A DNA stretch of 33,060 bases, from the IMG/VR virus record IMGVR_UViG_3300036768_000867, positions 1 to 33,060 of that record. One strand, written 5' to 3'. The DNA is from a virus. The notes under the pieces are model-generated. The model did not search any database and was not told the DNA's origin. It was given only the letters and a program-made list of their open reading frames with translations. Numbering within the stretch: the stretch's first letter is position 1; each line of letters begins with the position of its first letter. Made by a program: the position numbers and the translations under genes. Shown here piece by piece: positions 25,599 through 32,886 of the stretch.

Positions 25599-25649
25599 AC
25601 TAGTTCGCAACGCGCCGAACTAGTCCGCGACGCGCCGAACCAGTCCGCG
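25599..25649. repeat. short tandem 20-bp repeats between terminase genes
   Basis: Two full copies of a 20-bp unit (ACTAGTTCGCAACGCGCCGA, ACTAGTCCGCGACGCGCCGA) at 25599-25618 and 25619-25638 plus a partial third copy at 25639-25649 (ACCAGTCCGCG). They fill the gap between the two terminase genes and lie outside any called gene. Confidence 0.75.
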
Positions 25650-25991: not shown

Positions 25992-26303
25992 TTTTTATTC
26001 AGCACGCGACCCCGCGCGCGCCTGCGGGATAATCGGGCCGACGGCCCGTACATATATATATGTGTCGAGCGCGGTCGGGGTCGCGTCCTCATCGATGCGC
26101 TGGGCTAGCCGGCCGGGCGCCGGGGGCGCCGGCACCCGCGCCCACCGCTCGCGTCACGGCTGACTCTGTGATGATGTGGCGAAAATAGCACAGTGTTGCG
26201 GATATGTCCACAGCATAAAATCGACGTAATGTCAGATATTTCGCCGGACGGATGTACCTGTCTTATGTACAGTATAGCCACGATCGACTAGCGGAGGACA
26301 TCG
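25992..26303. promoter_or_regulatory. intergenic control region between late operon and rightward small gene
   Basis: No gene seen in ~312 bases that read away to both sides. Present are: a perfect stem CGGGCC/GGCCCG with a 3-base loop at 26034-26048; an adjacent perfect 14-bp palindrome ACATATATATATGT at 26050-26063; two GGCGCC units at 26116-26130; an AT-rich stretch about 26160-26280; and the inverted repeat TGTAC-N9-GTACA at 26253-26271. The late (leftward) promoter probably lies here. TATACT (minus strand, 26271-26276) could be a -10 box but no -35 partner was found, so no exact promoter is called. Confidence 0.5.
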
Positions 26304-26471
26304 ATGATCCAAGAAATCCTGCGCCCAACCCGCCGGGAAGCACGGTGGGATTATCCGGGACTGGACCCGGAATACTACTGGGTCAAAGCGGACGACCAGT
26401 GGCATGGGCCTTACTGCCGGTGGGCGGAGGTAATCGCCCGGTTTCCAGAGGCCGAAACCGCGTGCATGTAG
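26304..26471 (+). CDS. small rightward protein, 55 residues, strong ribosome site
   Basis: Starts ATG 26304 with GGAGG at 26293-26297, six bases before the start, the strongest ribosome site in the surroundings. The product opens MIQEILRPTRREARWDYPGL and is followed by DPEYYWVKADDQWHGPYCRW and AEVIARFPEAE. It is rich in Trp/Tyr and acidic residues, with no membrane segment and no recognised family. It is the only rightward gene near the control region, convergent with the replication operon. Its short length and isolation are typical of phage regulatory or host-takeover peptides; this is an inference. Confidence 0.65.
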   Translation: MIQEILRPTRREARWDYPGLDPEYYWVKADDQWHGPYCRWAEVIARFPEAETACM

Positions 26472-26625: not shown

Positions 26626-28038
26626 CTACCCGCCGCGCCAACGCGCACCAGCGGCCAAAAAAACGTGGTTTCCGTCGATCGTATGTGTACTTACGATTCC
26701 AATGCCGACCGGGCCGCCGCGAGCAGGCGGTCCACCCGCTCCCGCTCCGCCGGGCTCAGGTCCGCGTAGCGCGGCGGGTCCGGCGGCCGCCGGTCGCGGG
26801 CCAGCATCCGCACCTGCCGCGCGCGGATCAGGATCGTCCGCCGGCGCGACAGCTCCGCCGCCGCATGGCGGCGCACATCCCCCGGCTGCGGCACCATCCG
26901 CCACGTCCAGCGGGCCAGCGTCGCCTCCAGTGCCGCCATCAGCACGTCCGCCGGCAGGTCGTGCAGCAGCGAGCGGTAGCTCCGCGACACGGCCTGGATG
27001 TCGCGCGGCACCGGCAGGTCGTGCAGCGCCGCATGGCTCAGCAGCCGGTCCAGCGCCACCGCCCATGCCCGGTCGTCCGCCGGCCGCAGCGCCGCCTCCG
27101 CCGCCGCCACCAGCCCCGGCGCCGCCGTCGTGATCCACTCCGGCACCGCTCCCGCCCGCACCGGCGTGTCCGCCAGCCAGGCCGAGGCCCTGCAGGATAG
27201 CGGCCCGCCGGGCCGCGACGTCGTGGACGGGATGGTCGTGCTGCCGGTCGCGGCCGGCACGCCCGTATCGGTCATGGCGCTGCGCCTCCTTGCGCACCCA
27301 GGTCTGCCAGGCACGCGTCCAGTCCAGGTGGGTGGTGTTGCGCCCCCGCCCCAGCGTCCAGTACACCCGGAAATCTTCGGCCATGTCCGTGATGCGGGCG
27401 TCGCTCAGGCCGCGGGCGCGGGCATAGTCCCGCTCCGCCGGGCTCGGCTCCCAGTCCGCCGGCAGCCGCGTGCCACGTGCGGCGCCGCCGCCGCGCTGGG
27501 CAGGCACGCCACCGCCCACGCGCGCCCCTGGCCGAGCATCGCCGGCCCGACAGGCCGCACCGGCGTCGCCCGGGATGGCCGCGACAGGGGGGGGACTAAG
27601 GGGGGGGTTCTCTGTCTCTGTCTCTGTCTCTGTCTCTGTCTCTGTCTCTAGGCTAGCAACTTGATAGCAACCTGCTAGCGACTTGCTAGCAACTTGAGAG
27701 CGACTTGCTAGCACGTTGCTAGCATCGTTCTCGGTCAATGGCTTATCGCCGCCCGGCGCGTCGATGATCCAGCCCTCGCGCGCCATCAGGTCGAGGTCGA
27801 CCGGCTGCTCGGCGCCAATCTGACGACCGACCCATGCCGCGTCATAGGGCAATCGGTTTCCATGTTGGCTCGCCAGCAGCCATATTCCGACGAGGTGCCA
27901 TTTCGCGACGTCGGGGAGCCGACCGAACTCATAGTCACCCAACAAGTCGCGATACAGCTTGATCCACCTGAGCGGCCGGCGATCGCGATAGTGCTGGAAC
28001 CGCGCAAAGTTCCGCACCGAGAATATCCGCGCCGCCAC
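26626..28038 (-). CDS. replication protein, O/DnaT-like, with extended 3' reading frame
   Basis: Start GTG 28038. The N-terminus (RNFARFQHYRDRRPLRWIKL, YRDLLGDYEFGRLPDVAKWH, LVGIWLLASQHGNRLPYDAA) is the winged-helix type DNA-binding part found in lambda-O-like and related phage replication proteins. An iteron-encoded linker (residues about 103-130) and an ETETET stretch (about 131-142) follow. Next is a DnaT/DnaD-like segment (DWEPSPAERDYARARGLSDA, RITDMAEDFRVYWTLGRGRN, DWTRAWQTWVRKEAQRHDR) that would load the host helicase. After about residue 270 the frame stays open as an Ala/Gly/Pro/Arg-rich stretch to 26626, overlapping the whole nested gene; the true protein end may be shorter or frameshifted. 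Confidence 0.75.
   Translation of the reverse strand: MAARIFSVRNFARFQHYRDRRPLRWIKLYRDLLGDYEFGRLPDVAKWHLVGIWLLASQHGNRLPYDAAWVGRQIGAEQPVDLDLMAREGWIIDAPGGDKPLTENDASNVLASRSQVASKSLAGCYQVASLETETETETETETENPPLSPPPVAAIPGDAGAACRAGDARPGARVGGGVPAQRGGGAARGTRLPADWEPSPAERDYARARGLSDARITDMAEDFRVYWTLGRGRNTTHLDWTRAWQTWVRKEAQRHDRYGRAGRDRQHDHPVHDVAARRAAILQGLGLAGGHAGAGGSGAGVDHDGGAGAGGGGGGGAAAGGRPGMGGGAGPAAEPCGAARPAGAARHPGRVAELPLAAARPAGGRADGGTGGDAGPLDVADGAAAGGCAPPCGGGAVAPADDPDPRAAGADAGPRPAAAGPAALRGPEPGGAGAGGPPARGGPVGIGIVSTHTIDGNHVFLAAGARWRGG
26691..27275 (-). CDS. nested replication-associated protein (helicase-loader-like candidate)
   Basis: 194 residues, read in another frame within the 3' part of the O-like gene. 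Start ATG 27275 has AAGGAGG nine bases upstream, embedded in codons of the longer frame. The first ~40 residues (MTDTGVPAATGSTTIPSTTS) look unstructured and overlap the likely functional end of the first gene. From about residue 45 the sequence is a well-formed helical protein: VPEWITTAAPGLVAAAEAAL, DIQAVSRSYRSLLHDLPADV, LMAALEATLARWTWRMVPQP. The 'LPADVLxxALExxLxRWxWRMxPQPxDVR' pattern recurs in phage replication proteins next to O-like genes. Function inferred from place; family not verified. Confidence 0.7.
   Translation of the reverse strand: MTDTGVPAATGSTTIPSTTSRPGGPLSCRASAWLADTPVRAGAVPEWITTAAPGLVAAAEAALRPADDRAWAVALDRLLSHAALHDLPVPRDIQAVSRSYRSLLHDLPADVLMAALEATLARWTWRMVPQPGDVRRHAAAELSRRRTILIRARQVRMLARDRRPPDPPRYADLSPAERERVDRLLAAARSALES
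27587..27607. repeat. paired poly-G tracts in replication gene
   Basis: Two runs of eight G (27587-27594 and 27600-27607) separated by ACTAA, in the coding region of the replication gene (C-runs on the coding strand). Each is long enough for slippage in replication or sequencing. Confidence 0.8.
27611..27646. repeat. hexanucleotide microsatellite TCTGTC x6
   Basis: Six exact copies of TCTGTC; on the coding strand they encode a Glu-Thr dipeptide repeat. ETETET linkers occur in many phage O-like proteins. Copy number change would alter the linker by two residues at a time and keep the frame. Confidence 0.9.
27652..27728. repeat. iteron array, seven 11-bp direct repeats (candidate replication origin)
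   Basis: Seven contiguous 11-base units with consensus GCTAGCAACTT: 27652, 27663, 27674, 27685, 27696, 27707 and 27718 (variants GATAGCAACCT, GCTAGCGACTT, GAGAGCGACTT, GCTAGCACGTT, GCTAGCATCGT). 11 bp is one helical turn, so a bound initiator would be on one face of the DNA. The array is inside the replication protein gene, as in lambda, where O binds iterons in its own gene, and has lower GC than the flanking DNA. It is adjacent to the TCTGTC microsatellite and both poly-G runs. Confidence 0.85.
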
Positions 28039-28039
28039 G

Positions 28040-28480
28040 TCAGTACCCCGGCAGCACGTCCGGAGGCAGCTCCGGCATGTCGTCGAGCTCGCGCGGCAGC
28101 AGCCCCCGCCGGATGCGTGATCGCGTCGCCACCAGGCACCCGATATTCCACATCGCTGCCTCCAGATGCGGCTCGTCGCGGTAGCCGGTGCCATACCGCA
28201 GCAGGTGATCCATCGCGGAGTTGTAATATGTGCTCAGCGGGATGCCGCGCTCCCAATTGCGGGCGCCATGCTCCGCCGCCCCCCGGCCCATATGCATCGC
28301 GTAGGCATAGATCGCCTCGCGCGGCAGGAGGTCATAGCGCCGGTGCTCCTTGTCGGCGCCGCCGTTGCGCCGCGCGCCGCTCGCGAACTGCCGCACCGCG
28401 CGCTCCAGAATGTCCGCCGTCAGCGATGCCGCCGGGATCGCCGGGTCGTCGTCGCGCTCCGCCATCGCGGCCTCCGTCAT
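28040..28480 (-). CDS. dATP/dGTP diphosphohydrolase-like protein (DUF5664/MazZ type)
   Basis: 146 residues from ATG 28480 (ATGA with upstream gene). The family pattern runs DKEHRRYDLLPREAIYAYAM, HMGRGAAEHGARNWERGIPL, STYYNSAMDHLLRYGTGYRD, EPHLEAAMWNIGCLVA. The E-x-x-x-H...G-x-R-N-W..G-I-P and A-x-x-H-L-x..D..HL-x-x-A-x-W-N motifs match the all-alpha pyrophosphohydrolase family that hydrolyses dATP/dGTP, including MazZ of 2-aminoadenine phages. No PurZ or DatZ partner is seen in the window, so a modified genome is not claimed. It probably adjusts nucleotide pools early in infection. Confidence 0.8.
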   Translation of the reverse strand: MTEAAMAERDDDPAIPAASLTADILERAVRQFASGARRNGGADKEHRRYDLLPREAIYAYAMHMGRGAAEHGARNWERGIPLSTYYNSAMDHLLRYGTGYRDEPHLEAAMWNIGCLVATRSRIRRGLLPRELDDMPELPPDVLPGY

Positions 28481-28887
28481 ATCGGCGCCACCGGGACCGC
28501 GGCCTCGTCGACGATGGTGGCCGGCGGCCGCACGCATGCCGCGCCGCTGTCCGGCGGCGCCACGAACCGCACCGGGATGCCCAGCCGCTCGGCCAGCTCG
28601 CGCTCGACCGTCATGCCGCGACTCTCCTCCCAGCCATGGAGCGTCAGCATCCACAGCTCGCGCGCGTGCCGCAGCAGCGCCCGGTCCTGCCGCATCCACA
28701 GCTCGTGCCCCAGGCGCACCGGCTCGGGCAGGTATCCGCCGATCGAATGCGAATGCGCGATCGGGCTGAACACGACATGCCCGTCCAGGATCAGCCGCGC
28801 CGCCGCGTTGCAGGTGCGGTCATACCGTTCCTGCATCACCTTGCGATCGGGGTGCGTGTAGGGCGAGGCGAGATAGATGTAGCTCAT
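28477..28887 (-). CDS. DUF1937 nucleoside 2-deoxyribosyltransferase-like protein
   Basis: 136 residues from ATG 28887, with AAAGGA nine bases upstream. The opening MSYIYLASPYTHPDRKVMQE and RYDRTCNAAARLILDGHVVF, SPIAHSHSIGGY, then LLRHARELWMLTLHGWEESR and GMTVERELAERLGIPVRFVA are the hallmark of DUF1937 proteins, which share the nucleoside 2-deoxyribosyltransferase / dNMP glycosidase fold (LASPY, E in W-x-x-S-x-G motif). They likely cleave or transfer deoxyribose on nucleotides. Function in this phage is inferred; it precedes the MazZ-like gene with a four-base overlap. A longer reading upstream from 28938 is not favoured. Confidence 0.85.
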   Translation of the reverse strand: MSYIYLASPYTHPDRKVMQERYDRTCNAAARLILDGHVVFSPIAHSHSIGGYLPEPVRLGHELWMRQDRALLRHARELWMLTLHGWEESRGMTVERELAERLGIPVRFVAPPDSGAACVRPPATIVDEAAVPVAPI

Positions 28888-29111
28888 GGTTGCGGAGTCC
28901 TTTCGTGCGGCTGGTTTGACCCGTGCATCCGCGCCCATATGATCGGTCGCGGTCGCCGGCCGGACATGATCTCGGCCGTGCTGCTGACGCCGAAGGTCGC
29001 GCGCGCCGCCCGCAGCACCGCGTCGGTCACGTCGCGGATGTTCCTGCGCGGGTCGGCATCGTCGCTGCGCGTATGCGCTGTCGGCGCGACGTTGCGCACG
29101 ATGCGGATCAC
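28884..29111 (-). CDS. mini-protein resembling DnaA domain IV (DnaA-box-binding helix-turn-helix)
   Basis: 75 residues from GTG 29111, overlapping the VRR-NUC stop (GTGA). The segment RNIRDVTDAVLRAARATFGV followed by SSTAEIMSGRRPRPIIWARM has the pattern of the DnaA C-terminal DNA-binding domain: a helix, VS..(E/D)(L/I)xS, an RR.R.I..AR basic loop. The ATPase domain is absent, so it may bind DnaA boxes or compete with host DnaA, or help the phage initiator. The stop overlaps the DUF1937 start. Medium certainty: similarity is judged by eye. Confidence 0.7.
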   Translation of the reverse strand: MIRIVRNVAPTAHTRSDDADPRRNIRDVTDAVLRAARATFGVSSTAEIMSGRRPRPIIWARMHGSNQPHERTPQP

Positions 29112-32532: not shown

Positions 32533-32886
32533 ATGCGCGCTCCCGACCAGGCGGCGGCCGTCCGCGCCCTCGATCCAGACCAGGTCGCGCACGAGCTGGA
32601 GCGGCGCGGCATGGAATGGGCGGACCGCAACCAGGCCGCCGAGGCGCTGGAGGAGGCGCGCAAGTCGGTGATCGCCCAAGCGACGCTGCGGGCGAACGGC
32701 CGCTCGCACGCCGAGCGGGAAGCCGCCGCGCTGGCCTCAGCGGAGGTGGTCGACCACCTGCGCCGCATGGTCGAGGCGCGGGGCGAGGCGAACCGCGCGC
32801 GCGTGCGCTACGACGTATGGAGGACCTATATCGAGCTGGAGCGAAGCCGGCACGCGACCGAGCGGGCGGCAATGACGCTGCGATGA
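32533..32886 (+). CDS. helical protein, end of rightward recombination operon
   Basis: 117 residues starting at ATG 32533, GAGG 12 bases upstream. Almost all charged helix (QVAHELERRGMEWADRNQAA, EALEEARKSVIAQATLRANG, AEVVDHLRRMVEARGEANRA) with a C-terminal RVRYDVWRTYIELERSRHAT. Probably a coiled-coil partner of the SSB-like protein; not recognised. It is the last phage gene in the window. Confidence 0.65.
   Translation: MRAPDQAAAVRALDPDQVAHELERRGMEWADRNQAAEALEEARKSVIAQATLRANGRSHAEREAAALASAEVVDHLRRMVEARGEANRARVRYDVWRTYIELERSRHATERAAMTLR

Follow-up and report, generated by a model that had tools for sequence, protein, structure and literature searches.

What does a tandem array of short repeats do inside the coding region of a phage replication gene? 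The question is raised by a 33,060-base virus record, analysed here over its whole length and referred to as the window, which carries phage head and packaging genes on its minus strand (terminase large subunit, portal, scaffold and major head protein). A preliminary description of this DNA had noted seven in-register 11-bp iterons at the linker of an O-like replication protein and had read them as a phage replication origin, in the lambda layout but with an unusual short iteron. The features discussed in the following are listed in Table 1.

Table 1. Features of the putative origin region; positions refer to the 33,060-base window.
Feature	Position	Strand	Remarks
Initiator ORF	26626..28038	(-)	GTG 28038 to first stop; conserved up to about 27274
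Initiator N-terminal domain, aa 1-100	27739..28038	(-)	predicted winged helix; candidate iteron-binding domain; PHROG 26426
Seven 11-bp iterons	27650..27728	(-)	register of the preliminary description 27652-27728; register shared with homologues 27650-27726
Purine tract (GAGACA)n, coding strand	27609..27649	(-)	directly abuts the last iteron; proposed unwinding / single-strand loading site
DnaT-type DNA-binding domain, aa 191-255	27274..27468	(-)	PF17948, E 1.8e-6, 28 bits vs curated cut-off of 25
Next gene, 194 aa	26691..27275	(-)	position of lambda P; based on codon-position GC

Compared to the consensus GCTAGCAACTT, the seven 11-mers (27652-27728) fit at 11, 9, 10, 11, 8, 9 and 9 of 11 positions, while the 11-mers flanking the array on both sides fit at only 3-4. 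The self-identity of the array is 0.74 at lag 11 compared to 0.07-0.40 at lags not divisible by 11, and its lag-11 signal is the strongest 77-bp periodicity in the whole 33 kb when all lags and all places are considered. Resampling of synonymous codons with the protein kept gave a maximal periodicity of 0.657 in 20,000 trials compared to the observed 0.731, i.e., 0/20,000 trials reached the array. Tandem Repeats Finder reports period 11 with 6.6 copies (score 90) as well as period 33 (score 109). Furthermore, all 11 adjacent unit pairs with at most 3 mismatches that were found in the window lie within the array, where 0.14 pairs are expected. That is, periodicity beyond synonymous recoding, repeat detection and pair counts agree that the seven iterons are real. 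In the register shared with homologues, the unit read on the coding strand (from 27726 down to 27650) is NNYGCTAGCAR with the palindromic 6-bp core GCTAGC.

The placement of the array within a replication gene also holds: it encodes the linker between the N-terminal domain (PHROG 26426) and the C-terminal DnaT-type domain of the minus-strand initiator gene. The GTG start of this gene is one base past the stop of the preceding gene. Beyond its conserved end, the initiator ORF stays open for about 650 bases (26626-27275, minus strand) and thereby runs through the entire next gene, which is read in a different frame; the ORF of a twin gene (L012) is likewise open far past the conserved end. For this overlap, codon-position GC favours the next gene over the initiator frame. 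The product of the next gene has no Pfam match, no recognisable loader domain, and only a weak match to PHROG 34007 (unknown function). Directly upstream of the initiator (28040-28938, minus strand), there are two nucleotide-metabolism-like genes, one with a dATP/dGTP diphosphohydrolase N-terminal domain (PF18909), the other for a DUF1937 / nucleoside 2-deoxyribosyltransferase-like protein. The least stable stretch of the window (26180-26320) separates the terminase side from the replication genes, and its minus strand carries a match that resembles a sigma-70 promoter. A 20-bp unit in 2.5 copies is located at 25599-25648.

The N-terminal domain of the initiator is matched by the PHROG 26426 'replication protein' profile both in the window (E 1.2e-6) and in 66/66 relatives. 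An AlphaFold model of the N-terminus, based on an alignment of 66 sequences, has a mean pLDDT of 81, and from its order of helices and strands we predict a winged helix. No convincing Pfam or NCBIfam model was found for this domain. When compared with the PDB, sequence search gave no relatives and fold search no match at E<=0.001. The fold search in BFVD returned four viral proteins at E<=0.001, including gp04 of Iodobacter phage PhiPLPE, and a 'Replisome organizer' that matched the model weakly (E 0.16). With regard to lambda O, the Pfam family Phage_rep_O matched neither the window protein nor any of the 66 N-terminal and 70 full-length relatives, and the PHROG 345 profile 'replication initiation O-like' matched 1/66 relatives (E 0.006). 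This qualifies the earlier term 'O-like'. Plasmid Rep initiator families are absent from the Pfam matches of the initiator. Four relatives (L022, L049, L051, L094) carry an inserted HNH endonuclease domain, located after the N-terminus and before the purine-rich linker; close to the N-terminus, their in-register iterons have disappeared or are difficult to discern.

Homologues were collected via tblastn in 50,697 phage records and via searches with the N-terminal alignment in IMG/VR, from which the best 80 of 565 confirmed relatives were used, as well as in bacterial and archaeal genomes. The latter search, with one genome per species, provided 14 relatives, while a whole-protein scan of bacterial genomes gave none. 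About 100 genes from phages, viral contigs and bacterial genomes were gathered, of which 82 remained as non-redundant once those with more than 85% identity were removed. Among the organisms named in the relatives' records are Vibrio, Xanthomonas, Iodobacter, Limnohabitans and Cylindrospermopsis phages as well as Bradyrhizobium, Paramagnetospirillum, Limnoglobus, Zavarzinella and a Nitrospirales genome.

Once the homologues are aligned over the 77 bp that precede the purine tract, the iterons are visible by eye. The pooled lag identity is 0.447 at lag 11, 0.395 at lag 22 and 0.354 at lag 33, compared to about 0.25 at other lags. When in-register units were counted under a relaxed criterion (6 of 9 positions), real genes could not be told apart from synonymous shuffles, and a strict test for exact G[AC]TA[GT]C cores was used instead. 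At least two such cores in 11-bp register are present in 59/82 genes, while synonymous shuffles reach this in 6.1 genes on average and in 13 at most (200 rounds). The distance from the last exact core to the tract is 8+11k bp (8, 19 or 30) for 50 of the 64 genes that have both. Among the 72 scored genes, 10 have at most one unit close to the N-terminus; the four genes with the HNH insertion are among these, and L032 is without core and tract. We also screened with a DNA-only pattern of two iterons plus AGAGA, which is found in at least 120 viral contigs. Within the 80 inspected, it falls in the initiator gene 74 times; of the remaining six, one (L116) is truncated at the end of its contig and another (L146) reads in frame into an initiator-like linker. 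The comparison with homologous phages, suggested in the preliminary description as a check, shows that dozens of distantly related phages keep the pair of array and tract. It also corrects one detail, i.e., the iteron is indeed short with its 11 bp, but this is the norm across a large family instead of a peculiarity of the window phage.

Two classes of units occur among the homologues, namely NNYGCTAGCAR and NNYGATATCAR. Their cores GCTAGC and GATATC differ at core positions 2 and 5, and since these are symmetric, the palindrome is kept in both classes. On the protein tree, the class label needs only about two changes, which points to mostly one old switch as the origin of the difference. We also considered deriving contact residues from the covariation of protein and core, which was rejected given that, with about two class changes on the tree, such a signal is confounded with ancestry. 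The palindromic core suggests a two-fold symmetric recognition, and a dimer may bind each unit.

The preliminary description covered the iterons but overlooked the adjoining purine tract, i.e., half of the element. Its codons are strongly restricted: Thr is encoded by ACA in 96%, Arg by AGA in 86% and Glu by GAG in 89% of the cases, compared to 27%, 16% and 41% in the remainder of these genes. Six relatives (L035, L039, L041, L043, L044, L045) have an initiator frame that ends within the array such that the protein consists of the about 100 aa of the N-terminal domain, while GCTAGC iterons and an AGAAGAG-type tract persist. For L035, L041 and L045 (about 2780-2910), the array is part of the 5' end of the next gene's open frame, an SF2-helicase-like ORF; for L039, L043 and L044, there is no long frame across array and tract. 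Within these six relatives, the iterons are spaced less evenly, at 11, 22, 26 bp and more. Given the restricted tract codons and the persistence of array and tract where the initiator frame has ended, selection acts on the DNA of both elements, and their occurrence outside the initiator frame means that the DNA function is separable from protein coding.

Array and tract together form the second least stable 60-120 bp stretch of the GC-rich window. In low-GC relatives, the tract has a GC content of 42% compared to 39% for the gene, i.e., it is neither weaker nor A+T-richer than its own gene. The conserved feature of the tract is its GA-repeat on the coding strand, where GAG is preferred though GAA is commoner elsewhere in the genes. 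Conserved repeat, codon preference and stability in low-GC relatives favour a sequence- or strand-specific site, possibly a single-strand site for the initiator, rather than a plain A+T-rich unwinding element. Compared to the window, a twin (L001/L012, 97% identical) has an identical iteron array and a purine tract that is shorter by two hexamers (12 bp). Past the tract, positions 27587-27607 of the window contain two G8 runs (C8 on the coding strand), which the twin shares. C-runs after the tract were rejected as a conserved element, as they are present in 7/72 genes compared to 6.3 expected.

The gene that follows the initiator in relatives encodes a DnaB-like helicase in 11/54 and an IstB/DnaC-like loader in 10/54 cases; in L025, it is lambda P (E 1e-33). 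These next genes, together with the homologues' iterons and tract being kept as DNA, support the phage origin in lambda layout that had been proposed initially. Arguments against it are the 10 genes with at most one unit, the tract of low-GC relatives with its unremarkable A+T content, the next gene of the window with its lack of a loader domain, and the GC skew described below. Judged from the sequences, we consider it highly probable that array and tract are a phage replication origin that is built into its own initiator gene in the style of lambda and functions as follows.

Starting from the observed iterons and tract, their fixed register, the DNA conservation and the domain order, we infer binding, opening and helicase loading. 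The winged-helix N-terminus would bind the palindromic core of each 11-bp iteron. Since successive iterons are one helical turn apart, bound proteins would be located on the same face of the DNA, where they could assemble into a compact nucleoprotein complex. The strain from this complex would open the adjoining (GAGACA)n tract, and the exposed single strand would be held by the initiator, for which the DnaT-type domain is the candidate. Finally, the replicative helicase would be loaded with help of the next gene's product. The cumulative GC skew, for which a turning point at the array had been suggested as a check, falls steadily through the array and has its minimum at 32,581, i.e., no turning point is observed there; this result is uninformative because the record is of uncertain completeness and its identified genes are on one strand.

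An unlikely alternative is that the array serves as an operator, i.e., that the initiator or another regulator binds the iterons and controls the transcription of the replication genes, while the origin is located elsewhere. Palindromic sites for a winged-helix protein may be operators too, and one origin array can have both functions, but an operator does not need the purine tract with which the array is always paired in fixed register. The array is found just before the next gene in some relatives but mid-gene in most, and no promoter-like site was found at the array of the window. Even less probable is that the array governs copy number, incompatibility or partition in cis without being the start of replication: plasmid iteron arrays can serve as incompatibility loci, but the replication gene contains the sole such array of the window, with the purine tract next to it, and helicase or loader genes often lie downstream. 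That a charged repetitive linker (ASxxLAxxxQVAS, ETETET) is selected as peptide, with the DNA periodicity as a by-product or due to slippage, is largely refuted already and has hardly any probability left, for although most genes read through the sequence in frame and the twins' GAGACA arrays differ by whole units, as from slippage, synonymous shuffles destroy the periodicity, the tract codons are nearly fixed, array and tract are kept outside the initiator frame in six relatives, and each unit is read in a different frame because 11 is not a multiple of 3.

Beyond the origin reading itself, it is conceivable, with slightly less than even chances in our estimation, that the window represents a widespread and undescribed class of phage origins. 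Here, a distinct initiator family would act on palindromic 11-bp iterons spaced by one turn and would open a sequence-specific, strand-asymmetric GAGACA-type tract, i.e., a defined single-strand loading site at fixed phase instead of a generic A+T-rich unwinding element. In the open-access papers searched, we found neither an account of such an origin nor an experiment on any member of the family. Together, the 11-bp iterons and the phased purine tract provide a sequence signature by which many uncultured phages can be searched for the putative origin and its initiator; the genomes that harbour relatives range from Pseudomonadota to Planctomycetota. The purine tract also raises the question whether, in some origins, helicase loading depends on a specific purine strand instead of a low melting temperature.

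Among known systems, iteron plasmid origins (P1, RK2, R6K type) are alike in their direct repeats in helical phase beside the opening region (PMC5043065). They differ from the window in that here the array is inside the initiator gene, each unit is palindromic and the initiator shows no match to a plasmid Rep family. The PHROG 26426 proteins include gp04 of Iodobacter phage PhiPLPE and proteins of Xanthomonas phage PBR31, Limnohabitans phage DC33, Cylindrospermopsis phage Cr-LKS3 and Vibrio phage phiV208. All of these phages have the homologous N-terminal domain and, at the corresponding position, 11-bp iterons with the purine tract, in degenerate form for phiV208, while PBR31 and DC33 differ from the window by GATATC instead of GCTAGC cores. 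The remote O/P homology of the replication proteins has been remarked for PBR31 (PMC10975493); searched for iterons, repeats and replication origin, the PBR31 and phiPLPE papers (PMC10975493, PMC3391216) do not describe the array.

The lambda origin (ori-lambda, gene O) likewise has palindromic repeats within the initiator gene, which are bound by the initiator in lambda and presumably so in the window. Lambda and the window family have the same order of initiator domain, iterons, purine-rich tract, C-terminal domain and next gene; the latter recruits the helicase in lambda and is a candidate for this role in the window family. The lambda O gene (L106) contains four annotated 18-bp iterons, whose starts are 20, 24 and 23 bp apart, and an A-rich, purine-rich coding-strand stretch after them. 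O dimers bind the lambda iterons and open the neighbouring 40-bp A+T-rich region (PMC5043065). Unlike the 18-19 bp iterons of lambda, which are about two turns apart, the window has 11-bp units with a 6-bp palindromic core at a distance of one turn; a GAGACA-type tract is found where lambda has its A+T-rich unwinding element, and the initiator is outside the lambda O Pfam family. The window element therefore resembles lambda in layout, and it probably works like the lambda origin with an initiator that is not a lambda O family member.
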